From the NCBI RefSeq assembly GCF_905475395.1, contig NC_058341.1:59775501-59839500 (forward strand): a stretch of DNA of 64,000 bases, in the 5' to 3' direction. This DNA is from Chrysoperla carnea (lineage: Eukaryota; Arthropoda; Insecta; Neuroptera; Chrysopidae). The notes under the pieces were generated by a model. The model saw only the letters and a program-made list of their open reading frames with translations. It made no database searches and was not told the DNA's origin. The stretch's first letter is position 1, and each line of letters opens with the position of its first letter. Below are positions 16,570 through 63,500 of the stretch, piece by piece. The position numbers were made by a program, and so were the translations under genes.

Positions 16570-19272
16570 ATGTCGAATAATATTGATGATGACCCTAATC
16601 AAATCTCAATATCTGAAGATGAATCATCGCAAGACGAGATATTCTTGTCTGCTGACAACAAAGAATCAAAAACATCTAAAGTTGAATCGAAAATGTTGAA
16701 TAAAAAAGATGAAGATGAGCCTAATCAAATCTTAATATCTGAAGACGAATCATCGCAAGACGAGATATTCTTGTCTGCTGACAACAAAGAATCAAAAACA
16801 TCTAAAGTTGAATCGAAAATGTTGAATAAAAAAGATGAAGATGAGCCTAATCAAATCTTAATATCTGAAGACGAATCAACGCAAGACGAGATATTCTTGT
16901 CTGCTGGCAACAAAGAATCAAAAACATCTAAAGTTGAATCGAAAATGTTGAATAAAAAAGATGAAGATGAGCCTAATCAAATCTTAATATCTGAAGACGA
17001 ATCAACGCAAGACGAGATATTCTTGTCTGCTGGCAACAAAGAATCAAAAACATCTAAAGTTGAATCAAAAATGTTGAATAAAAAAGATGAAAATGAACCT
17101 AATAAAATCTTAATATCTGAAGACGATTCACTCCAAGAAGAGATATTTTTGTTAGGTAATAATAGAGAATCAAAAATACATGAAGATGAATCCAATGAGA
17201 AATCAAAAAATTCAACAAAAGCACCGTTAATTCAAGATGAAGCTAATAAGAGTGATTCAGATTTGCTGATATTCAAATCTTCTGGCACTAAAACACTCCA
17301 GGAGAAGTCTAATAAAATATTAATAACAAAAAATTTAACCGGCGAGTCACAGGAAATTAATGATAATACTTCGTTGAATTTTCAAGAATTATCTGGCTCG
17401 GAAGAAACCTACTATTCAACTCCATCACCAAAAGAAATCGAAGTAGAAAAAACATTCGAAGATCAGATGGTTTTAATAAACCCCACTAGTAATTACCCCA
17501 TTGCACAAGATGAAAATACATTATTTGTGCCACTACTATCGAGCTCCCAAAAAATAGGAGTTGTTTGTGAAGGTACTCAGACTGAATCACCATATTTGAA
17601 TCTAAGTGAAGGTTTTGGAAGTTTAGTTATCAACTTTACGCCTGAAATTGAAACTAATAACTGTAACGAATCAAATTCGCAGGAAAATCTACAAAAGAAA
17701 AATGTTGAAGATAAAAATACAGATAAACATAAGTTATTAGTCGATAACTTAGAAGCTGGCGAAGGTACTCATACTGAAGTCAACTTTAATTCACCAGAAT
17801 TTGAAACTAATGATTGTAAAAAATTAAATTCGCACGAAAATCAACAAAAGAAAAAGGTTCTTAAAGAAAAAACTGATAAATATAAGTTATTAGTTGATAA
17901 AAATTATGAAAATAAGGTCAAAGAAAATGTTTTTAATACCTCTTTAGAGGAAGGAGAAGATTTAAATTATTTCCCAATTAAACGTCGAAAAACAAATACT
18001 ACACCGAAAAAAAATAAAAATGAAAAAACAATTGAAGTTATTGGAGAAAAAACTGTGATAAATTTAGAAGCAACACAATCAAAAAATACAAAATTAGTTC
18101 GAGAGGAAAGTACAAATTCGAATAATATGGATAGAAATCAGTCGAAAAATAAAGAAGCAAAAACAGCTGAAGTTATTGAAGAAAAAACTCGGATAAATTT
18201 AGAACCAACGGAATCAAAAAATACAAATATAGTTCGGGAAGAAAGAACAAATTCGAATAATTTGGATAGAAATCAGCCGAAAAATAAAGAAGCAAAAACA
18301 GCTGAAGTTATTGAAGAAAAAACTCGGATAAATTTAGAACCAACGCAATCAAAAAATACAAAATTAGTCCGAGAGGAAAGTACAAATTCGAATAATATGG
18401 ATAGAAATCAGTCGAAAAATAAAGAAGCAAAAACAGCTGAAGTTATTGAAGAAAAAACTCGGATAAATTTAGAACCAACGCAATCAAAAAATACAAAATT
18501 AGTTCGAGAGGAAAGTACAAATTCGAACAATTTGGATAGAAATCAGCCGAAAAATAAAGAAGCAACAACAAATAAAGTCCTTGAAGAAGAAAATGTAGTA
18601 CATTTACAACAAATACAATTGAAAAATACAAAATTAGTCCGAAAAGAGAGTACAAATGCGACAAATTTGGGTCGAAATCTATCGGAAGATACACATGAGT
18701 CAAATTTGGGGCAAACAAAAGTTAAAAAATTATCAGAAAATATTCAGGAGACGAACTCGGAACAAACTCGAACCAAAAATAGAAAGAGATCTTTTGAACA
18801 GACTGAAAATTCTTGTGAGCCTTATTTTAAGAAACAACTAACAGAAAAGTCGAGGATTATTATAAAATTTAATCAGGAATCAGCAAGTGGTTTGAAGGAA
18901 ATTCACTATAATTTGAACAAGGGTGATATTATCGAGCTTAAATCACTAACACAAGAAGCTTCAGCTAGTACAAGTGCATTAAATAATGACTTTAACGTGA
19001 TCCAAATCCAAAAGACTATTAACAATATCGAAAATCAATTGAACAATTTCGATGAAAACGTAATGCAGGGCCCAAGTGGAGAAAATCCAAACGAGTTTGA
19101 ATATCGACGTTTAAAGTTCAAATGCTTAGCTTGTCGACATTTGTGCGTACACGAGATCAAAAAACGTATTGGGAAATCTAAGCATATAGTTGTCTGTTCT
19201 AGTGAATGCAGGAACTTGATAAGATTTAACCAAGAAAATGAATTAGAATCAATTTCTAGAGTTACAAATTGA
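16570..19272 (+). CDS. Single-exon 900-aa acidic repeat protein with SIM-like array and MYM-like finger
   Basis: I do not recognise an orthologue. The 2.7-kb frame is uninterrupted from ATG to TGA. Residues 7-174 are four 42-residue tandem repeats with a decayed fifth (175 to about 215). Repeats 2-5 each carry ILISEDE or ILISEDD: a hydrophobic core followed by acidic/Ser residues, which is the classical SUMO-interacting-motif layout. A basic stretch, PIKRRKTNTTPKKNK (469-483), looks like a nuclear signal. Residues 497-676 are four 45-residue repeats (NLE.TQSKNTKLVREEST type) plus a decayed fifth. The C-terminus has C852-x2-C855-x20-C876-x3-C880, the spacing of MYM/TRASH fingers, and ends ...VVCSSECRNLIRF. 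Inference: a nuclear SUMO-binding scaffold. The bulk is low complexity and likely disordered. Confidence is high that it is a gene and moderate for the role. Confidence 0.8.
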   Translation: MSNNIDDDPNQISISEDESSQDEIFLSADNKESKTSKVESKMLNKKDEDEPNQILISEDESSQDEIFLSADNKESKTSKVESKMLNKKDEDEPNQILISEDESTQDEIFLSAGNKESKTSKVESKMLNKKDEDEPNQILISEDESTQDEIFLSAGNKESKTSKVESKMLNKKDENEPNKILISEDDSLQEEIFLLGNNRESKIHEDESNEKSKNSTKAPLIQDEANKSDSDLLIFKSSGTKTLQEKSNKILITKNLTGESQEINDNTSLNFQELSGSEETYYSTPSPKEIEVEKTFEDQMVLINPTSNYPIAQDENTLFVPLLSSSQKIGVVCEGTQTESPYLNLSEGFGSLVINFTPEIETNNCNESNSQENLQKKNVEDKNTDKHKLLVDNLEAGEGTHTEVNFNSPEFETNDCKKLNSHENQQKKKVLKEKTDKYKLLVDKNYENKVKENVFNTSLEEGEDLNYFPIKRRKTNTTPKKNKNEKTIEVIGEKTVINLEATQSKNTKLVREESTNSNNMDRNQSKNKEAKTAEVIEEKTRINLEPTESKNTNIVREERTNSNNLDRNQPKNKEAKTAEVIEEKTRINLEPTQSKNTKLVREESTNSNNMDRNQSKNKEAKTAEVIEEKTRINLEPTQSKNTKLVREESTNSNNLDRNQPKNKEATTNKVLEEENVVHLQQIQLKNTKLVRKESTNATNLGRNLSEDTHESNLGQTKVKKLSENIQETNSEQTRTKNRKRSFEQTENSCEPYFKKQLTEKSRIIIKFNQESASGLKEIHYNLNKGDIIELKSLTQEASASTSALNNDFNVIQIQKTINNIENQLNNFDENVMQGPSGENPNEFEYRRLKFKCLACRHLCVHEIKKRIGKSKHIVVCSSECRNLIRFNQENELESISRVTN
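16588..17217 (+). repeat. 126-bp in-frame tandem repeat array (5 units)
   Basis: Units begin at 16588, 16714, 16840, 16966 and 17092, all 126 bp. Units 3 and 4 are nearly identical and share the changes S-to-T and D-to-G relative to unit 2, which indicates the most recent duplication. Unit 5 has diverged and loses the pattern after about 30 residues. Confidence 0.9.
18058..18700 (+). repeat. 135-bp in-frame tandem repeat array (4 units plus decayed fifth)
   Basis: Units begin at 18058, 18193, 18328 and 18463, with a degenerate unit from 18598. Units alternate between an M-D-R-N-Q-S and an L-D-R-N-Q-P version. This suggests expansion by duplication of a two-unit block. Confidence 0.88.
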
Positions 19273-27621: not shown

Positions 27622-28578
27622 CATGAAGAATGTAGAACAGGAGAACGATCGCTATAGAAAATATTGTCCCCAAAATATGTATAAAATAAGTGAGGCGCTG
27701 CGATCAATATGTAGTATCAATAAAAGCGGTCTGTTGTGCGCTAATTTCAAATGATATATCAATTTGTACATTATGCTAACAACAACAGCTAACTTCACAG
27801 ATACTACTTCTTGTTGACAGCGCGACTGGTGGCTGAAAAATGAACTATAAATTCTACAAATTTTTAGGGACAGGTACGCTAATGCTTTAGTACATAGCGA
27901 TCTTTCTCCTGTTCTACATTCTTCATGGCTACGTGCTAAAGCGCACCCATGAAGAATGTAGAACAGGAGAACGATCGCTGTAGAAAATATTGTCCCCAAA
28001 ATATGTATAAAATAAGTGAGGCGCTGCGATCAATATGTAGTATCAATAAAAGCGGTCTGTTGTGCGCTAATTTCAAATGATATATCAATTTGTACATTAT
28101 GCTAACAACAACAGCTAACTTCACAGATACTACTTCTTGTTGACAGCGCGACTGGTGGCTGAAAAATGAACTATAAATTCTACAAATTTTTAGGGACAGG
28201 TACGCTAATGCTTTAGTACATAGCGATCTTTCTCCTGTTCTACATTCTTCATGGCTACGTGCTAAAGCGCACCCATGAAGAATGTAGAACAGGAGAACGA
28301 TCGCTGTAGAAAATATTGTCCCCAAAATATGTATAAAATAAGTGAGGCGCTGCGATCAATATGTAGTATCAATAAAAGCGGGCTGTTGTGCGCTAATTTC
28401 AAATGATATATCAATTTGTACATTATGCTAACAACAACAGCTAACTTCACAGATACTACTTCTTGTTGACAGCGCGACTGGTGGCGAAAAATGAACTATA
28501 AATTCTACAAATTTTTAGGGACAGGTACGCTAATGCTTTAGTACATAGCGATCTTTCTCCTGTTCTACATTCTTCATG
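27622..28578. mobile_element. Family A MITE, three copies in an exact 326-bp tandem array
   Basis: Copies occupy 27622-27927, 27948-28253 and 28274-28578 (306, 306 and 305 bp). They are separated by the same 20-bp spacer GCTACGTGCTAAAGCGCACC. Each copy has inverted ends of about 37 bp: CATGAAGAATGTAGAACAGG then AGAACGATCGCTAT, and the complement. Copies 1 and 2 differ at very few positions (for example CTATAG against CTGTAG near the left end). The long minus-strand frames that span copies recur only because the DNA recurs. Confidence 0.9.
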
Positions 28579-34162: not shown

Positions 34163-34460
34163 TTTTTATACCATGCATATATGTAATATGCAAGGTATAC
34201 TAAGTTTAGTCCCAAGTTTGTAACGCTGAAAAATATTGATGCTACGAAAAAATTTTGGTATAGGTGTTCATAGAATCATCTAATTAGTCCATTTTCATTT
34301 GTCCGTCCTTCCGTCCGCCTGTGGGCACGATTACTCACAAGCAAAAGATAATAAGCTGAAATTTTTACAGCGTACTCAGGACGTAAAGACTGAGGACGAG
34401 TTCGTAAATGAGCAACATAATATGTCAATTGAGTGCAGGGTCAATATTTATAAATATATG
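34163..34460 (+). repeat. Family B dispersed repeat, 3'-truncated
   Basis: It runs from ATACCATGCATATATG through TTTAGTCCCAAGTTTGTAAC and CCGTCCTTCCGTCCGCC to GAGTTCGTAAATGAGCAACA, then loses similarity. The 63-codon forward frame inside it is a by-product of the repeat. Confidence 0.75.
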
Positions 34461-37821: not shown

Positions 37822-40800
37822 TTAAAGCTCATCATTTCCAGGAAAATAATAATTTTGGTCGTCTTCGCCCTCATCACTGGAGGGACAAATTTGTGATGTT
37901 TTTACACAGACATCTGTTTTCATATCTGATTTATCTTTGATTAAATTTTCTAGTATGATCTCGTCCCATTCTTCGGTAATATTTTCACACTAAAAGATAA
38001 AAAAACATTTTCTATAAATTACAACCTTGAAAAAAAATTATATGAGGAAGTGATAATAAATATTAAAGATTGTTAAGGTGTTAAATGTGTTAAAGCTATG
38101 GTAAAATTTTTTTCGACAGAGAGTTCAGTGAGTTTTACATGTTTTGAATGGGGAAATCGCGAACTTTGCAGCTGCTTATCTCGCGATATAAACGAACATC
38201 TAACATTATTCTAAGTCGGTGAAAAAAAAACCAAATCGGTCGACAAAAGCATTCATGCTGGAAATACCTTAAGAGAATTGGGGGTAATTTTACAAACTAG
38301 TTAATTGCGAGTTGGATTCATGTAGAGAGATTTTTGCCATAAATCATCACATTACCTTTTTTGAATAACTAGTAAACCGGAGCATAGGAAAAGTGAGATA
38401 ACAGCATCGATTTTAATAAAATTTTTTGTAACGTTTTTATAGGACCACAAGGAACATTCAGTCAACTTAACCTAGTCAGAAGGGGGCATAGGGCCTCAGC
38501 GGAGAGCATATAAAGCCCTATTTTTTTTGAAATGCTTATTTTGGCTTATAATTTTCATCTAGTAGGTCGCTGATACGAATCTCATGTCAGATTACACGAA
38601 TTCTGTCACGCATTCCAAAAATCATGCATTTTTGACCCGAAATTCCACTTTTGGTACAAAAACGTAAAAGTATTTATCGTCGAAACTGTTATCTAGGAAA
38701 TATTTTTGGCCGCTGATTAGGAATCTGATGTCAGATTAACGGATTCTGTCACGTATTTCGAAAATCGTGCCATTTTTTGCCAAAAATTTTACTTTTTTCG
38801 TACAAAACCAGGAACTAAATATTTGTCGTCCAAACTTTGCTCTAGGAGGTATTTTTGGCCACTGTTTACGAATCTGATATCCGATTACACGGATTCTATG
38901 ATGTCTTACAAAAATCGTATCATTTTTTATAAGCACTCAGTTCGCCGTTTTTGTGGCAAAATAATTAAATTCTTGGACAAAAATGGCACGATTTTTGAAA
39001 GATGGACAGAATCCGTATAATCGTATAATTTTTATGCTATAAAAATTAAATTCTTGAAAAAAATGCCTCGGTTTTTGGGTTACGTCACAGCATCCGTTTA
39101 TCTGATATTATATTCGTAATCAGCGACAAAAAAATACCTCCTTGATAACAGTTTGAACGATAAATACTCAGTTTTCCGTTTTCGTTTCAAAAAAATGGAA
39201 TTTCGGATCAAAAATGACACCATTTTTAGAATACTTGACAGAATTAGTGTAATTTGACATCGGGTTCATATTCAGCGACCAAAAATACTTAATTTGAATA
39301 AAATTTGGGCTGCATATGGTCCCCGATGGGGCCCTATGCCTTCTTCTGACTAGGTTAAGTAAGATAAATGTACCTTGGGGTAAAACTGACTTTTGAAACT
39401 TTTTTGTAAAATTGACTTAAATTTATGGTAAGTAAAACCACGCATAGTAATGCATGATAAAGGAAATTTGTAAAATATTTTTTTCGTTGTAATACGAATA
39501 TATAGGTTGTTCCTAAATAATTATAAATAATTTAAGAGCAGGCAAAATATTCTTGGACCAATTTTATGAAGAAAGTTCATATAATAGAGGAAATAAAACC
39601 GAAAAAAAAACAGTCTCATCGACTCCTCAACGGTAGATTTTTGCGGATCATACTCATAAGAACTTATGTTTTTTCGATTTGTGCCCATAGGGTGTGACAG
39701 AAGTACCCTACTTTCGGATACCACATTCTCATTATTATACCATGTATATGAAATATACATAGTATATTAAGTTTAATCCCAAGTTTGTAACGCTTAAAAA
39801 TATTGATGCTACGAAAAAAATTTTGCTTTAGGTGTTCGTAGAATTACCTAATTAGTCCATTTCCGTATGTCTGTATGTCTGTCTGTCTGTCGTCTGTCAT
39901 CATGATTACTCAAAAACAAAAAGAGATATCAAGCTGAAATTTTTATAGTGTGCTTAAGACGTAAAAAGTGAGGTCGAGTTCGTAAATGAGAACGTAGGCC
40001 AATTGGGTCTTTTGACCGTAGGACCCATCTTGTAGACCGTTAGAGATAGAATAAATGTTTAAATGTAAAAAATATTCCTTATAAAAAAATAAACAACTTT
40101 TGCTTGAAAGATTTTCTTGTAAACATCACTGTTTACCCACGAGGACGCTAATTATGTGTAAATTTCTTAGTATGTATTAATATAGGAATATCAGTTATAT
40201 GTGTGTGGCTAAATAAGAGTGGAAATCTTTCTTTATTTACGTGACGTCAAAAAACAAACGATTGCGTCTTCAAAACTGTCTTTACATGGTATTTCAACAA
40301 TTAACTCAGTCAATTGTTTGTTTTTATTTGTTTTACCTCTAAAATAACTATTGTTTGGTGAAAAATTAACAGTTTTTCTTTAATTAACAAGAATATAGTC
40401 AACAAATGTTTTAATTTTGATTTTTTTCCTGTCATTCTAGGAGCATTTTTAAGAAAAGTTCCTAAACTGAACTCGAAACGAAACGAAATCTTAAGAACTT
40501 CCGCCGGTTTGGTGTCATTAATTATAAATATTAAAAATATGACAATAACTTACGTAAAAACGTAAACTTTTATTTAAATCAGCATCTTGTATAATTGAAA
40601 TTTGACTCATTTCTGGATTATATCCACCATTTGGTAATACCATTGGTATGATTGTTAACTTATTGTCTTTGGTTCCTCTAACATAATTATCAAATTCTGC
40701 ACAAATTTTATCCATTAATTCAGTTAAATGTACTTCTGATTTATGTAATGGAACTGTTTTTTGATTATTATTTTTGGCATCCAGGTTATATCTACCAACT

Positions 40801-50088: not shown

Positions 50089-53000
50089 ATGTTTAATTAT
50101 TTATTTGAAGGAACAATTATTCACTGCCCCGAACGTTTAAAATTAGATGTTATTGAAAATGGATTTTTACATGTTCAGGACAGTAAGGTAAGATTTTTTA
50201 ATTTTTAATACATACATTTAAAAAATAAAAACTTAGGGCTGACAAAAAATTTTGAGCCTATAACGTAACAGCATACCTAATTTTTTCAATAATTTTGTAA
50301 ATAGGATGTCTCGTAATGACCTCTTAGGTACATGTGATACAAATTATAAATTCCAAGTAAAAAATTTTTAGAAGCGTTTCTATCCAATTAACCTTCAATG
50401 AGGTGGGTTTGTTAATTATCATTTTTCAATTTGGGAATTTTAAGATTGATATTAGTAAAATTGAAATTATTATGAATAACGAAAAAATTTAATTCAAGTA
50501 TCTTTGAATTCATTTTGCCCACGGGAGCCTGCTTTTAACGCTCCACCTTCTTTTTCCTTAGGGGGTGAAATTTAAAAAAAATAAAATATACGTACATATT
50601 TAATCATTATACTCCGTATATATGAAATATATATCAAGGTATACTAAGTTTAGTCCCAAGTTTGAAACGCTAAAAAATTTTGAAGCTACGAACAAAATTT
50701 TGGTATAGGTGTTCATAAAATCATTTATTAGTCCATTTCCGTTTGTCTGCCCGTCTCACAGTGGAGTGTTTATACCAAATTTCCAGACAAAATATAATCA
50801 AGTGATTTTTTTGCTCAAAATTGATTCAAAAGAGCCATTCTGAGCCACTTTTTTTTTATCGATGCTTCTTTCTTTTGATTCCACGTATTTTGACTTTGGA
50901 ATTAGAAGTTAAAAATTATTACTGGAAAACTGCCTGCTCCTTTTTATCACTCTCGATTTAAGCTATCTTAATCTCCGTCCTTATCTTAGTCTTAAAAGAA
51001 AAGTCGCAACTTCGCGCAAGATTTTTTTTTTCATAAAATGTATAGTGAATATTTAAACTTGCTCTCTTACCCAAAATTTTATCAAGCAAAAAGGGGCACA
51101 TAAACAAAAAGCTATGAGTTTGATAAATTTAATGAAAAAAGTTACTTTTTAACAGCAAATATGAATCACAAATATTTAAGCATATTAATAGAAACGTTAC
51201 CATTAAATAAATAAAGCATAAACCTTATAATATAAAAAAATCCTTACTTAATTTCACTAACAAACACAGTAAACTTAAATTGAATGATACGGTATATGGA
51301 GAGCAACAACAATAATAACATGCATTCGTAACTAGATTGCGGCTTACCAAACAGGCGGGGGCGAGTTTAAGGTAACTAAAGTGACCTGATTGTGATGAAG
51401 TGGTTATCTAATTACACCAAAAAACAATTTTCAATGCAAAACAAAAGAGTTGAGTTTTCTGACTTTTGGTATAAATATTCCACTGTGCGTCTGTCCGTAA
51501 GGATAACTCAAAAACGAAAAGAACTATCAATAATTTATCATTATTATCATAATTTATTATAAATAATGCAAGCACTGACATTCACCACTTTCTATATAAG
51601 GTATTTCAACAATTAACTCAGTCAGATGATTGTTTTCACTTTTATAATCTAGTTTATTTTAAACGGAAATAATTTTTTTGGTTTTATCATCTTAGTAGAT
51701 TCAGCATCCAACTTTTAATTTTTCAAATTTTCCACTATATAAAACGGCTCCCGAAAACAACAAAAAATTGTTTGCCAAAAAATCCCTTATGTTTTTCGAA
51801 AGTTATGGCACTTTTAAATAAAAAAAATATTCAAACTTAACTCAGCTTCATGCCAAAATTACCGTATTTTGTTAAATAATCTGTCCAAACTGAGCTTTAT
51901 CTACGTTTAGGCAAGCCCTAGGCCAAGACTATCACGTTCAATTTGTAGTAGGAAGAAATTTCCAAGGAAGGTAGTTGGTAAGACTACCTTCCTTCAACTT
52001 ATTAGCCACCTCGGTCTCAGGACTTGACTGCAATGGGCTATTTTTTATGGGGATGTGTAAAAATACGGAATCAATAGAAGATAGCACTACAAATAAATCA
52101 AGCTTTTATAGATTTTGATGAGGCCAAATCTAAGGTTTGCTCAAGTGAGGTGGGGAGGAAAAACTCAGTTTGAACAGATACTTTTGAAAACTTTTTTTAT
52201 ACATAAATATAAATTTATATTTTTCTGATTTCATAGCCTCAATAATACCGGACCGGTTTTTGTGAAATTAAGCACACATATTGTTATTTGGTCTTCGTTC
52301 TGATGTCGATTTCAATGTATCTTTCGTTAAAATTTGAAAATGAGTGAGAATAGATGACAAGATCTGAAATCAAAATTAAAATCGATAAATAAACATGAAA
52401 GATATAAGCAATGAAATAATTTTATCTATCTTTTTCTGGGAAAACAACTTTTGATACGTAGTCTTTTGTGGCTGTCGCAAGTTATGACATCAGCGCGTGC
52501 AATTTTTCTCCCTTTCTATTTATACATTTAAATCCTTCATATATTCTTAGTTTATGATGCTATCAAAAAATTGATATTCACACGTTGTTTTGGCTCTATA
52601 ACGAACGTCGATTGAGGCATGATAAAATTTTCGGACAAGGCCTTTTGTTTCTGTTTTTACATTTAAATACATGCCAGCGTGCTGCATCGCATGACTCAAA
52701 TTTCAAGCTCGAAATTTTAAAGCATGTTTTTAGCCTGTTATTACATTGTACTAAATTTTGAGTTTTCTTTCAGGTAAAATATATTGGAAACATAAAGCCT
52801 GAGAATATACCATCAAATACGGTTTATTATAAATTGAATAGATATCAATTTTTAATACCAGGTTTTATTGATACACATATCCATGCACCACAATATCCAA
52901 ATGTTGGATTAGGTTACGATGCTGAATTATTGGATTGGTTGAAAAAATATACATTTCCAACGGAAGTACATTTTAAAAATGAAAACTATGCTAAACGTAT

Positions 53001-56000
53001 TTATACGTACATTGTGGTAAGGCATGATTTTTGTACTATATATATATGAAATATACCATTGTATACTAAGTTTAGCCCCAAGTTTGTAACGCTGCCTTGG
53101 ATTAAATGTAAAAAATGTTCCTTATAAAAAATAAACAACCTTTGTTTTAAACATTTTTTCGTAAGCTCTTTATCCGTGAGAGTGTAAATTATATAGTATG
53201 TATTATATAATTTACGCTCTCACGGGAATATCAGTTAAGTGTGTGTGACATGTCTGTATGATGTATATTTGGTTATCTTTCTTTACTTGTATGACGTACA
53301 AAAACAAACGATTGCATAATCAACACTGTCTTTACATGGTATTTCAACAATTAACTCAGTCAAATGTTTGTTTTCACTTGTTTATAAAAACATTTTTTTT
53401 CCATTTTGATTATAAAATTTTCCATTATGATTTATCATAGTAAATAAGTAAACAATTGTGTCAATAATTTCTTTGTGAGTAATTTATTGATACCAGTATT
53501 TATTAATGTAATTCATTAGTTTACATATAGTACAGTATGATAAATCATAAGTAACTAAATAAATTTTCCCTTTACATTTTTTGAGATGGCCACATTATTT
53601 TACTTGTTAACCGATTTGACAGGAGACAGTTGATTTGCGTTTGGTTTGGTTTTGAGGTCAGGACTGCCGATAAATGTTTGAGCGCCCGTGTGAAATACAG
53701 ATTGTGGCACCCCTTCTTCAACTTCGTCTCTACGATCATGTAAATTAAACTTACTGGCGTATTTTGCATTTGAATTTATTTTTGTTAAAATAGGGCATAA
53801 ATTAGGGAAAAAAAAAGTTGCCAAATATTTTAGCTATTTTATTGCATCCCGCGTAGAAACGTTTTTGAACTTTAAAAACATCTATTCGTAAACTTTGAAA
53901 GCAAAAAATTTTGAATGAGATGTTTATGATACAAATTCGGTCAATTTTCGTAAAGTAGCAGCTTTTTAGAATTTCGAAAACAGATTGAATTTGTCGCTGT
54001 GGTGTGGATTTTTCGATGACAACTGTATTTAACTAACTAATCTTTCTTTTTATAAGTTTAGTGTTTTACGTTCAACGTTTTATAAAAATTTATAAAATTA
54101 TTTGTTTATAGAGTAGAACTTTAAAAAATGGAACAACCACAGCTGCTTATTATGCAACTATACATCTAAAAAGCACCATTATTTTGGCTGATATAGCTGA
54201 GGAAAAAGGCCAACGATCATTTATTGGTTTCAATAATATAACAGATTGTGCACCACCTGAATTATTACAGGAAAGCAATGACGTATCTATAGAGGAAACA
54301 GAAAAGTTTATTCAAACAATTTTAGATAAAAATGTAAGTTTAAGTATTATAGAATGGTAATTCAATCTACCCGGTGCCAATGTTTGTCGTATGGGCAAAA
54401 AGAATGACTTTTTTTCGTATATTTATAATAAAAAAGGTTTCCATATGTAGCCAACTTAAGTACGCACCCTGTATATTGAAAGAAAATAATAAACATTTTT
54501 GTCCTCTTGTAAGCTTTGTGGGTTTTGGTTCCCAAACTTTCTTCAAAATAAATTAAATTTTAATGTTAATTATAATATTTATGTTTTAATTTTTAGAATA
54601 AACTTGTCCAACCAATAGTTACACCACGTTCGGCACTTCGCTGTAATGAAGATTTACTAAAACGTTTGGGAGATTTGGCAGAAAAATACCAACTCAATAT
54701 TCAAGTAAGTATGTAATTAAGTTTAAGTTTAGACCGAATTGCCTATACTGATAGTTTTCAAATTCTTGATCGATTTTGTAAAATATTCTGTAAAATAATA
54801 GTATTACCACTCGCCAATAGATGGCAGTAAGAGTCACATTTTTCAGTTTGTTTTAGTTCTTCCGGAAAACACGGATAAAATAACATTTTTAAAAATGAAA
54901 CCAAGCTAGATCGATTTTTCGCCCCAAAAAACAAACCATTGCATACTAATTTTTATGAAAATTTTTGGAGCAGTTTACGAGATGGCTGAGTAATCTGATA
55001 ATTTATTATATTTTGTGATAAATTAATGGCCAAACAATTTTATAAATTTAACATAATTTTGTCATATTTAACAAACTAAATAAGTGGTAAGTCCATAACC
55101 AGGGTGGGCAGACACCTTGACCTACCCACCTTCCCCCGTACGTCCATGGTTGAAGCGGTCACACCAACTTTTAAAATTGACTGTAGCCGTAAAGAAAAAT
55201 TGTTGAAAATATTGCCCCTGGTACAATCGATGGGAATGACTCAAGGTATACTAGAGTTTATTTATGATCTATACTACATTCATTTTTCGATTATCATTGC
55301 AGTTCCTCCACCCCTTCAAAATTATTTTTCTGAGAAACATTAATTAATTTTTTTTTCAAGAATATCATGTGGGCTGCTCCAATTAATAAGAATGTAGTTT
55401 TTAAGTCATGCTTATAATGAAAGCAATCTTTTTGTTTTTTTTCTAGACACATATTAGTGAAAATAAAAAAGAAGTTGAAGCGGCATTGGAAGCATATCCT
55501 GGATATAAAAATTTTGCTGACATCTTTGATAGAAACAATCTGTTAACAAAAAAGGTACTTCATATAAAAAATTTCATACAAATTTAATAAATTTCAAGTG
55601 GTCACGAATAAAAAAATACACGTTCATTTTGCAAGATGTACGTTATGTATGAATATATAATATATTACACATATAAGGAGAAAAAGTAAAGAATGTCTCA
55701 GAAGCCATGTTCACTTTTCCTGAAGCGAAACCTCGGGTGACAAACATTAAATCTGTAACATTCTTTACTTGCTCCCGTGGTATGTATACTATTTTCCTGC
55801 TCGACAGAGGCGGAAAGCACAAACTTTGTTTAGCACAGCGGAACGAAAATTAACACTTTCCGCTCGGAGGAGAGAAAAAAACATTCTCTATAGTATATTT
55901 ATGGACTCTTTTTGATATATTTATTTTACACACGGGGTGCTACACCAGGACAAAGGAACAAACCTATTTGAATTCGGGATCGTACCAAGGGGATCACATT

Positions 56001-58731
56001 TTTAAAGAAAATAAACCAACAACGTGAAACTATCTACAAATCAAATTCAGAATCTGTAATCTCTAAGGTGCATTTGCATGCTAACGCGTGACACTGAGTT
56101 TGAGTGCCAAATTAGTTCACTTGGACAGTTTAGACAGTGCTGTCATCTCGAAATAAACTTAGCAGCGTTAGATCGTAAAGCTAAACATATTTTAGCTTTT
56201 TATTCTCAGGATTGATTTTGATAGTTTCTGAAAAAATCGAAGAAATATAAATTGAGTGCGATACGCCAGACAGAATTATTTTCTATTTTATAATTCTACG
56301 TGGTTTGAAAACAAGCATCTCGTGACAGGCTAAACTAGGATGTCGATACCAACTGTGATTTAATCAAATGTTACTAGATTTAAATTTAATATGATTTAAT
56401 TTTACTTCACGTTACTCAATTGATTACGTTTATATAATATCGTTTACGATAATATTTCGCTTTCGGTAAGTGTCCCACTTTGAACGCAAGTGTTTAAAAC
56501 TGCAGACCCCAACCAAATCCTCTATAGCAGACAAACTCAACCCAACCAACTCGTAATTACAACAAAAGTGATTACAACTACATATGCTAATAAATTAAAA
56601 ATTAACAAAAAATGGTTTTTAAAAAAATTTAGGCTACTGCTGGATTCGAACTAAGTAATCACTAAAATAACATATTAAATAGCCACGCCTCTACTGACTG
56701 AGCTTTCCGAACTTCAAAGTGATAGTCATCCTTTCGTGCGAAGCTCTAGATTTAAATGCAATTCAATTCCTGTCATTGTAATATCTTGTCAATGAAAACG
56801 GCTACAGATAAAACTTTAAAGAAATACCAGGCAATTTTAGATGGCTTTTTTTTGGGCGGGAAATTATTATTTTTGTTACCGCGTACAATTAGTACCTAAA
56901 ATTAAAATTTTGTAGACGGACTCATTCAAACTTTAATCATTAAACATGCGGTATGGATATTTCAAACTGAAATGAGACTGATCGAAAGAGAGTGCACGTT
57001 TCATTCTAAATATTTACTAGATAATAGCCTAATTAGCCGAGCGGTCTTAAGCGATAGACTTTAACTGTTTGCCTACTTAGACTTAGGTTGCGGGTTCGAA
57101 TCCAGGTAGCGGCAGTGTGAGCAATTATAATAAATGGGCGGCAGAATTGATCATATTGTCGTCGCTTGGATAAGAACGAAGTAACCGACTCCACCCACAT
57201 CAATGACGTGGGTTATGGGCATATATGTCAGAGAAACGGAGGATAAACCACATTATTATATTTAGATAAATACATATTGACCAAAATGGAAGCATAAAAT
57301 CTGAATCACCGCCATTTAAATCCAATCAAACGGTGGCGCAGTTCGGCAATTTTTTGAAGAATTTTTTATAAGACGTCCACGGGGACACGAGTAATCGTTT
57401 ATTCCAATAATATATTCGTATAGAAAATTAAAAATTAAAAAATAAAAGTGGGCTTCTCGGTGCTGTCAAATACTAGATTGATGTAGAAAAACTTGTTTGA
57501 AAAATTGAAATTTTCATTTTTGCGAATCGGGATTTAAATCTATTTTTTTTTTCCACAAGAATATACTATTGGCAGTTTCTAACCAAAAATATAAACATCT
57601 TCCCATAAAAAGTAATAGCCCGCAGCCCTGTGGACGTATTATAAAAAAAACTCCTCATTATAAAGCCGATCAGCAGCACCGTTCGATGAGGTTGAAGTGG
57701 CGGTGATTCTAATTTTCCACTACCTTTTTGGTCAGCAGCTCTTTGTCTAATTCATCCATACAGTCTATTATTGGTCGATCTCATTTAAGTTTGAATGATC
57801 TATAATTCGATTTTCCAATAACTGTCCATAAAATTCAAAATCTAAATTTTTTACATATAATTTTATGATAGGTAATGTGTTTTAGACAGTTTTAGGGCAC
57901 GGTATACATTTAGATGAGAATGAAAAAAGGACAATTCTGGAACGAGGTTCCTCAATTGCCCATTGTCCAAATTCAAATGTTTGTTTACATAGTGGATTCT
58001 GTGATGTACGTGATTTGCTAAATCGTGGAATAAATGTTGGATTGGGTACTGATATATCCGGTGGTTGTAATCCAACAATACTTGATGCAATAAGATTATC
58101 CTTAATAACTTCTAACGGTGTGTCATTTTCGAAGCCAGAGGAGGATAATTATAAACCTATTAATTACGTGGAAGCATTTTATTTGGGTACTCTTGGCGGA
58201 GCTGAAGGTAAGTTTTTATGAAATAGTGACATGAAAATAAAGTAAAATTATCATAATGAAGACAAACACGATAGTAAACTGTGCAAGAAATGCGGCAAAT
58301 TTTCAATTGCACATGAGTGCAATTTAGCAGGAACGAATGCTTTTACACCTTGATTATGTAAAGGACAATCCGCACGAGTTTCACAAACCATATTTTTTTG
58401 CAAATGTGGGATTAATTCTCTCTTTTTTCTCAATTTTCCGCACAGTGACAAAAATCTAATTTCCCAATGAGTGAAAAAAAAGTTATACTTACATTTCGTT
58501 TTGATTTTAGCATTAAGAATTGATGATCGTGTTGGAAATTTTAATGTGGGCAAAGAATTTGATGCGTTGCTCATCGATTTAAACAGTAAAGACTCTCCAA
58601 TTGATCTTGATTTAAAATGTGAAGACGATTTTACAACGAAAGAATTATTTCAAAAATTTATTTACTTAGGTGATGATCATAACATAGATAAAGTTTTTGT
58701 AGCAGGTCGATGCGTTGTAGAAGACAGGTGA
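50089..58731 (+). CDS. GDA: Guanine deaminase, 7 exons, 440 aa
   Basis: Cytosolic zinc amidohydrolase converting guanine to xanthine and ammonia in purine catabolism. Exons: 50089-50187, 52774-53016, 54112-54333, 54597-54704, 55447-55554, 57886-58207, 58511-58731; all introns are GT-AG. Metal and active-site residues are present: H68 and H70 in PGFIDTHIHAPQYPN, H226 with E229 in THISENKKEVEAAL, H265 in VLGHGIHL, D316 in GLGTDISGG. Other family hallmarks: LLDWLKKYTFPTE, NGTTTACYFATI-equivalent NGTTTAAYYATIH, SSIAHCPNSN, YLGTLGGAEALRI, VGKEFDALLID, KFIYLGDD. Length is close to the usual 450 residues. Introns contain a Transib-like element, family B copies, SINEs and a foldback element, yet every exon is intact. 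Confidence in identity is very high. Confidence 0.96.
50620..51640 (+). repeat. Family B copy interrupted by the Transib-like element
   Basis: The left part (50620-50756) reads TATACTAAGTTTAGTCCCAA through TTTCCGTTTGTCTGCCCGTCT. The right part (51488-51640) resumes CGTCTGTCCGTAAGGATAAC and runs to AATTAACTCAGTCAGATG, with an internal deletion. It lies in intron 1 of the guanine deaminase gene. Confidence 0.85.
50757..51487. mobile_element. Transib-like non-autonomous element, 731 bp, 5-bp TSD
   Basis: The left end CACAGTGGAGTGTTTATACC and right end GGTATAAATATTCCACTGTG are inverted repeats of about 23 bp with two mismatches. The element is flanked by the exact 5-bp duplication CGTCT (50752-50756, 51488-51492). 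CAC(A/T)(A/G)TG-type ends and 5-bp GC-rich TSDs are the known hallmarks of Transib, the superfamily ancestral to RAG1. No transposase frame is present. Confidence 0.8.
53033..53385 (+). repeat. Family B copy with internal deletion
   Basis: It starts ACTATATATATATGAAATAT, reaches GCCCCAAGTTTGTAACGCTG, then jumps directly to AAATGTAAAAAATGTTCCTT and continues to TTTCAACAATTAACTCAGTC. About 250 bp of the middle is missing. It begins right after the donor site of guanine deaminase exon 2. Confidence 0.75.
56630..56718 (-). repeat. tRNA-derived SINE head
   Basis: The minus strand reads GAAAGCTCAGTCAGTAGAGG (A box) and, further on, TAGTTCGAATCCAGCAGTAG (B box). The A-to-B spacing is longer than in a canonical tRNA and the stems are imperfect. 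It is in intron 5 of guanine deaminase. Confidence 0.6.
57025..57265 (+). repeat. tRNA-derived SINE, near complete
   Basis: The head AATTAGCCGAGCGGTCTTAA...GGTTGCGGGTTCGAATCCAG has clear A and B boxes of a Leu/Ser-type long-variable-arm tRNA ancestor. The body continues through GGGCGGCAGAATTGATCATA, GTCGTCGCTTGGATAAGAAC, ACTCCACCCACATCA and GAGAAACGGAGGATAAACC to an AT-rich tail. It matches the split copy at 49255-49885. Confidence 0.8.
57277..57745. repeat. Foldback element in GDA intron 5
   Basis: GACCAAAATGGAAGCATAAAATCTGAATCACCGCC at the left (57278-57312) pairs with GGCGGTGATTCTAATTTTCC then TTTTTGGTC on the right. Further pairing of ATAAGACGTCCAC with GTGGACGTATTAT places the loop between 57400 and 57620. 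A possible outer pair (GACTCATTCAAACTTTAATC / TTAAGTTTGAATGATC) lies near 56930 and 57785. Confidence 0.6.
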
Positions 58732-62463: not shown

Positions 62464-63500
62464 TTTTTATACCATGTATATATGAAATATACATAGTATA
62501 TTAAGTTTTTATACCATGTATATATAAAAATACATAGTATATTAAGTTTAGTCCCAAGTTTATAACGCTTAAAAATAATGATGCTAGGAAAAAAATTTTG
62601 CCATAGGTGTTTACTAAATCACCTTATTAGTCCATTTCCGGTTGTCCGTCCGTCCGTCTGTGGACACAATAACTCAAAAACGAAAAAAGATATCGAGCTG
62701 AAATTTTTACAGCGTATTCAGGACCTAAAAAGTGAGGTCAAGTTCGTAAATGAGCATCATAGGTCAATTGGGTCTTGGGTCCGTAGGACCCATCTTGTAA
62801 ACCGTTAGAGATATAACAAAAGTTTAAATATAAAAAATGTTCCTTATCAAAAAATAAACAATTTTTGTTTGAAACATTTTTTCGTAAACACCACTGTTTA
62901 CCCGTGAAGGAGCAAATTAGGTCAAAACTTTAGTTTTCATATTCTGCAAAACTATTAAAGATAGGGAGTTGAAAATTTGCAGGTAGAATCAACTAGTAGT
63001 TTTGTATAACACTCTCAAAAAAAAAAAAAAAAAAAAAACATTAGAGAATACTATCGAAAATTTCGAAATTTTCATAATTTTTGAAAGTATCTTCTAGGCG
63101 TTTTCACAGGTAAACAGTGATGTTTACAAAAAAATATTTCAAACCAGAGTTGTTTATTTTTTTATTAGAAACATTTTTTACATTGATATTACTGTTCTAT
63201 CTCTAAAGGCTTACAAGATAGGATCTTTTCCATTTGATTGAATGAGAAAAAATTTTTGAAGGTATTTTCTAGATCTGTTCACTGGTAAACGGTGATGTTT
63301 ACGAAAAAATATTTCAAGCAAAAGTTGTTTAAAAATATTTCAAACAATAGTTGTTAATTTTTTTATAAGAAATAACTTTTACAATTAAACTTTTGTTCTA
63401 TCTCCAACGGCTTACAAGATAGATTCTTTTTCATTTGATTGAATGAGCAGTTAATCAATTTGGAAGCTAGAAAGTCGAAAAAAAAATTTACCAAAATCAA
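62464..63500 (+). repeat. Family B copy extended into an inverted, duplicated 3' part
   Basis: The plus-strand family B sequence runs from the doubled start ATACCATGTATATATGAAAT (62469, 62511) to about 62960. After an A-run (63019-63040), minus-strand family B words follow twice: a block around GGTAAACAGTGATGTTTAC, one around AACATTTTTTACATTGATA and one around GGCTTACAAGATAG. The two occurrences, near 63110 and 63285, are a tandem copy of the inverted segment. Confidence 0.65.

Follow-up and report, generated by a model that had tools for sequence, protein, structure and literature searches.

The feature at positions 50757-51487 of the window (the whole stretch of DNA analyzed, 64,000 nucleotides, C5:59775501-59839500) is almost certainly a MITE-type, non-autonomous Transib element that inserted long ago and was presumably mobilized by an enzyme supplied in trans. 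The host is probably an insect. We assign it to a non-autonomous Transib family because its copies have CACAGTG ends and 5-bp CGNYG target-site duplications and because Transib transposases are encoded in the same genome, of which 559,487,470 bases in 337 contigs were searched. The features of the insertion are as follows.

50752-50756, no strand: left target-site duplication CGTCT (from the sequence and the multi-copy duplication count)
50757-51487, forward strand: 731-bp MITE-like, non-autonomous element of Transib type, in which no Transib coding match was found
50757-50763, forward strand: left heptamer CACAGTG
50787-50795, forward strand: nonamer-like box of the left end, ACAAAATAT, separated from the heptamer by 23 bp
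51465-51487, reverse strand: right terminal inverted repeat, with the heptamer CACAGTG on the reverse strand and an A-rich box CCAAAAGTC 11 bp from it
51488-51492, no strand: right target-site duplication CGTCT (from the sequence and the multi-copy duplication count)

The element and its insertion site

The original prediction placed an element with inverted ends and an exact 5-bp CGTCT duplication at these positions, and its coordinates proved exact. With slashes marking the boundaries, the junctions read ...CCCGTCT / CACAGTGGAGTGTTTATACCAAATTTCCAG ... CTTTTGGTATAAATATTCCACTGTG / CGTCTGTCCG..., and 21 of the 23 bp of the inverted arms are paired. When all candidate end pairs in the window were scanned (525 CAC starts and 504 GTG ends, at a spacing of 100-3000 bp), three pairs scored above the element's own ends, each with 22 of 23 bp paired. 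All three have a common right end, their left ends are spaced by 326 bp at 27.8-28.6 kb, and their flanking 5-mers are not identical. A tandem array with 2.9 copies of a 326-bp unit (99% matches) occupies positions 27622-28578 there.

As predicted, the element carries no transposase: no Transib coding match was found in the window at E 0.01. Rfam gave no match in the window at gathering thresholds. Two stretches downstream match the amidohydrolase family (52762-53046 and 57886-58218), the nearer one starting approximately 1.3 kb from the element. Elsewhere in the window, a 900-codon frame (16570-19272) contains tandem arrays of 126-bp and 135-bp units at 16584-18679; Pfam gave no match to it at E 0.001.

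In the window copy, 12 bp present at the right end of other family members are missing. With these bases gone, 11 bp separate the A-rich box from the right heptamer, and the 23-bp inverted repeat of the window copy is a shortened version of the ~36-bp terminal repeat of the family. The resulting 23 bp/11 bp spacing is close to a 23/12 arrangement; the 23/11 state probably reflects accidental loss.

Removal of the element together with one duplication had been predicted to restore a repeat found elsewhere in the window (family B), and the joined flanks indeed align to four such repeats. All four alignments run through the junction, the best being that to 34213-34317 (86.8%); those to 7045-6897, 62555-62694 and 39780-39932 have gaps in or near it. 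Genome-wide, 39 of 40 scored matches (the best 40 of 3,921 first-look candidates) cross the junction at 84-89%, the fortieth being the window's own left flank. Taking out the element and one CGTCT leaves an uninterrupted host repeat like its paralogues. The empty site is therefore real but paralogous, and is no empty allele.

The host repeat occupies 50640-50756 and 51488-51520, with relatives at 7094-6897, 34166-34317, 39731-39932 and 62482-62694. It is abundant, as the number of first-look candidates from which the best 40 were scored indicates, and it contains a TCYG-type stretch, after which comes a conserved tail resembling ACTCAAAAACGAAAA. Since the insertion target is a low-complexity stretch of the CCGTCTGTCCG type, the duplication in the window is weak proof by itself, and the proof is supplied by the other copies. 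If the window copy is taken alone, a chance inverted repeat in AT-rich DNA could be imagined beside a chance CGTCT repeat, as a 5-bp repeat is cheap in a TCYG-type flank. The end and duplication counts described below refute this explanation, to which we give almost no credence: hundreds of ends were found against none in the reversed control, and 12 of 32 elements have exact duplications where 0.56 would be expected.

Copies and target-site duplications

A genome search for the 23-base end, allowing up to two mismatches, returned at least 589 matches (309 forward, 280 reverse), and the reversed control returned 0. At least 39 relatives were recovered with the whole element as query (among the best 40 of 963 first-look candidates, the window's own copy included). 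The loci examined contain 74 distinct end sequences (up to five substitutions), nearly all of which belong to two types. Both types begin with the same ~36 bases, CACAGTGGAGTATTTATACCAAATTTCCGGACAAAA (a majority reading made by eye), after which the left type continues TATAATGAAGGG and the right type GTCAGAAAACTC. Many single ends are parts of partial or rearranged copies.

Thirteen of 15 measured copies are 0.70-0.89 kb long, and the longer copies (1.20-1.27 kb; L038, L048 and L055) gave no Transib coding match. The family is thus typical of MITEs in being short, gene-less and present in many copies, with inverted ends and a constant duplication length. The mean K2P divergence of 15 copies from their majority sequence is 0.112 (range 0.063-0.150; 0.099 for the window copy), and pairwise divergence among the 15 is 0.123-0.244. 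As copies lie approximately 11% from the majority, the family is old and, judging from sequence divergence, probably inactive.

Among 32 elements for which both ends could be placed, 5-bp duplications were exact in 12 and matched at four of five positions in nine; the remaining 11 matched at three positions or fewer. Shuffling the pairing of flanks (2000 shuffles) gave a mean of 0.56 exact duplications and a maximum of 4. At other lengths, one exact duplication was found at 2 bp and none at 3, 4, 6, 7, 8 or 9 bp. In eight of the nine single-mismatch duplications the difference is a transition, as decay would produce. Eight loci with an eroded or unplaced end were left out of the count (L002, L003, L008, L034, L036, L037, L053 and L058), as was L014, of which only one end was examined. 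L006 and L013 were kept, elements that fell in two loci were counted once and single ends were excluded. One element (L073/74) was counted as a miss, although CGCTG is present on both sides if a 7-bp remnant at its left end is skipped. This remnant, TGGAATA, lies between the CGCTG duplication and the left end at C6:38226155 (L073) and is perhaps the trace of an earlier end.

The exact duplications are CGTCT, CGATG, AGCCG, CGCTG, AGTCG, GATCG, TTTCG, CGTTG (twice), CACCG, CGTAG and CCGTG. Over 64 flank readings, the target consensus is CGNYG (position 1, C in 29; position 2, G in 34; position 4, C in 33 and T in 26; position 5, G in 45). The expectation of GC-rich 5-bp duplications of the Transib kind is thereby borne out, and a duplication length other than 5 bp, which would have spoken against the assignment, did not emerge from the 32 copies. 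For comparison, a Transib target of CGNCG (PMC4735498) and a 5-bp Hztransib duplication of GCTCG (PMC1852546) are given in published accounts.

Transib transposases and the search for a source

To find transposases we used a 61-amino-acid Transib C-terminal motif, checked against HzTransib (6pqn_A, E 6.5e-20). The motif matched the genome at 35 places at E ≤1, 31 of them at ≤0.002 (best 1.4e-21). Most belong to what we call lineage A: an CACAGTGTTTCG end lies within 2.5 kb of 25 of the 35 places, and 26 of 34 CACAGTGTTTCG ends are equally close to a transposase match. Lineage A ends begin with CACAGTG, the same heptamer as in the window family, and a short lineage A derivative (L105) is flanked by ATGCG on both sides. 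In copies such as C2:75129984-75130657 and C2:42962439-42963097, the start of the N-terminal match is only ~0.5 kb from that of the C-terminal match, so many lineage A copies look internally deleted, as would result from amplification of a single deleted form.

Of the other ten motif places, three form a sub-lineage ending in CACAGTGTTTCGTTTATATG, six could be assigned no end and one is lineage E, a nearly full-length element of 3333 bp at C1:16226211-16229543 (L085, L089 and L090). Lineage E has CACATAGGACGAT ends with the heptamer CACATAG and is flanked on both sides by CGTCG duplications. Its transposase is broken into pieces that match HzTransib at E 1.9e-64 and 3.4e-21, with 52% identity over 214 residues. 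The 227-amino-acid N-terminal piece contains GRPSK and had no match in the PDB at E ≤1, and at ten other places in the genome, each with a stop, only the first ~64 residues of lineage E were matched. The match of lineage E to the Pfam RAG1 model (PF12940) has an E value of 0.0019 and is below the model's cut-off; a genome search with PF12940 yielded no matches, but neither did its control, so this negative carries no weight. Both Transib subgroups are described as having a domain equivalent to the RAG1 nonamer-binding domain, with the GRP positions kept (PMC9435367).

Is the source of the window family among these elements? A source copy elsewhere in the genome had been foreseen. Transib transposases are present in the genome, but none was found near the 127 ends examined. 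These 127 distinct ends, among at least 589, are the union of two listings (100 of the 589 ends and the best 40 of 636 candidates), and none has a transposase match within 29 kb. The best 40 left-end matches of the 636 candidates were likewise not near a transposase match, and no transposase was found in 20 eight-kb stretches behind single ends. The source may therefore lie among the remaining ends, or it may have been lost.

A narrower version of our explanation is that the family derives from lineage A or E, or was mobilized by the enzyme of one of them, so that the source is already in hand. The lineage A heptamer is identical, five of six lineage A ends have an ACAAAAT box that is shifted inward by a single base, and many lineage A copies, judged from match positions, look internally deleted. 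Nevertheless, the window family's ends are unlike those of A or E beyond the heptamer and box, and the window element has no Transib coding match. We consider a source in either lineage unlikely, although mobilization in trans by such an enzyme may have occurred.

It could also be proposed that the family belongs to another cut-and-paste superfamily whose CAC ends and 5-bp duplications arose by convergence. Consistent with this proposal, neither the surroundings of the 127 ends nor the 20 eight-kb stretches yielded a cognate transposase, and the end spacer differs from those of both transposase-bearing lineages. However, the window family has 5-bp CGNYG duplications, its CACAGTG heptamer and ACAAAA box recur in transposase-bearing Transibs of the same genome, and we know of no other superfamily in which CACAGTG, an ACAAAA box and 5-bp CGNYG duplications are combined. 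An unrelated transposase flanked by these ends, which would have argued for such a family, was not found in the stretches searched. We regard convergence as very improbable.

We therefore favor membership in the Transib superfamily. As the spacer is unlike that of lineages A and E, the link rests on the heptamer, the box, the duplication length and the target rather than on overall similarity. The Transib-like identity first proposed gains support from the CACAGTG heptamer and ACAAAA box, which also close transposase-encoding elements in this genome.

How might the insertion have arisen? A Transib transposase would have bound both ends through the heptamer and the ACAAAA box, contacting the box perhaps through the GRP-bearing N-terminal domain reportedly common to Transibs and RAG1. 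Cutting at the heptamer would proceed by a nick and then a hairpin on the flank; hairpin formation on flanking DNA at excision is described for Hztransib (PMC6941560). The ends would then be joined to the target with a 5-bp stagger, and fill-in by the host would produce the CGTCT duplication. The element itself would contribute only its ends, with the enzyme acting in trans from an autonomous relative, possibly one since lost.

End layout and relation to known systems

At both majority ends of the window family, an ACAAAA box lies 23 bp from the heptamer, giving a symmetric 23/23 layout. Lineage E has a CCAAAA box at 23 bp at both ends, and five of the six lineage A ends examined have an ACAAAAT box at 24 bp; at the sixth, the right end of L105, the box is at 29 bp, which goes against the 23-24 bp layout. 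The sequence of the spacer between heptamer and box differs among the window family and lineages A and E.

We compared these ends with ACAAAAACC, the canonical RSS nonamer. For seven of eight end sequences the position of best agreement is 23 or 24 bp, with 22 scoring equally well in one lineage E end, and the eighth, the L105 right end, has a three-way tie at 5, 9 and 29 bp; these eight ends come from three lineages and are not independent. Taken singly, the matches at the seven ends are modest, with shuffle P values from 0.003 to 0.10. At the majority ends, the best match within the terminal 60 bp is at 23 bp for both the left (6 of 9 bases, P 0.048) and the right (7 of 9, P 0.012). When box-bearing ends were picked by a pattern that requires a TATTTAT or GTTTAT spacer and so misses some ends, 16 of 23 had the box at 23 bp and three, all from lineage A, at 24 bp. 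The others were at 18, 20 and 11 bp, the last in two readings, of which that in L072 is an artefact without a deletion.

Given that all three lineages retain the box at this spacing, in every end examined but one, and the spacer sequence is not conserved, the layout may be under selection. A joint reading would take both ends as working analogues of the 23-RSS: the heptamer-23-ACAAAA layout would be selected in this genome's Transibs, read by the GRP-bearing N-terminal domain of the transposase as RAG1 reads the nonamer, and the ends would be cuttable by vertebrate RAG as 23-signals. We hold this reading possible, though doubtful. If it is true, the family offers an ancestral-type 23/23 pair with which the origin of 12/23 from a symmetric state could be tested. 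More generally, this Transib family is well replicated, its ends agree with the 23-RSS in the heptamer, the spacing and part of the nonamer, and two lineages of the same genome have a similar layout; together they form a data set for asking which bases of a Transib end are constrained and how a 23/23 pair stands to the 12/23 rule. Unless the ends are read by RAG the gain is incremental, as a general connection of Transib with V(D)J recombination has been published before.

The family's ends have CACAGTG, a 23-bp spacer and an ACAAAA nonamer start in common with the 23-RSS. They differ in that the signals bound a transposon on either side and lack a 12-bp partner, the family ends being 23/23 and the window copy 23/11, and in the last three nonamer bases, which are TAT (left) and GTC (right) instead of ACC.

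The Transib superfamily includes the enzyme that shuffles human antibody genes, and the N in names such as Transib N1 denotes a non-autonomous element. With described members of the superfamily (HzTransib and those of Drosophila and Anopheles), the window family has in common a CAC-type heptamer, inverted ends and 5-bp CGN(C/T)G duplications (PMC1852546, PMC4735498, PMC8355894), as well as an A-rich box ~23 bp from the heptamer (PMC8355894). Unlike them, the window element has no transposase, and the family has symmetric 23-bp spacers, whereas the nonamer-like sequences of Transib ends are reported to have symmetric spacers of 20-22 bp or asymmetric 12/23 spacers (PMC8355894). Anopheles gambiae Transib N1, N2 and N3 are also named as having RSS-like ends (Figure 2 legend, PMC8355894); by their description, the only basis of this comparison, those elements are 12/23 asymmetric and the window family is 23/23 (PMC8355894).

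RAGL transposons (ProtoRAG and protostome RAG-like elements) likewise combine CAC ends with 5-bp duplications (PMC7204232), and a bipartite conserved structure is described for RAGL ends and RSSs (PMC9435367). RAGL transposons carry a RAG1L-RAG2L gene pair, whereas the window has no Transib-type coding match; this difference is no bar to a RAGL derivative, as a non-autonomous derivative would carry no genes. The terminal sequences also differ. The protostome RAGL TIR consensus is given as CACTWMCAAACKTYKBB, with AAA at positions 8-10 (PMC7204232), where the window family ends, CACAGTGGAG, have GAG; in place of the initial CACTWMCAAAC, the family has CACAGTGGAGT.

Some Transib ends are reported to carry the very heptamers and nonamers of RSSs (PMC6941560, PMC8355894). 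The identity of the window heptamer to the RSS consensus, stressed in the original prediction, therefore holds but is less remarkable than it seemed, being published for other Transibs and present in a second lineage here. Among the titles and abstract openings listed in literature searches, none describes the window family; repeat databases were outside their scope, and we do not claim absence from print. The 23/23 form is a variation on a published theme of Transib ends. Since earlier papers have noted that Transib ends resemble RSSs, the window family is a new family of a known superfamily, a new member and no new kind.
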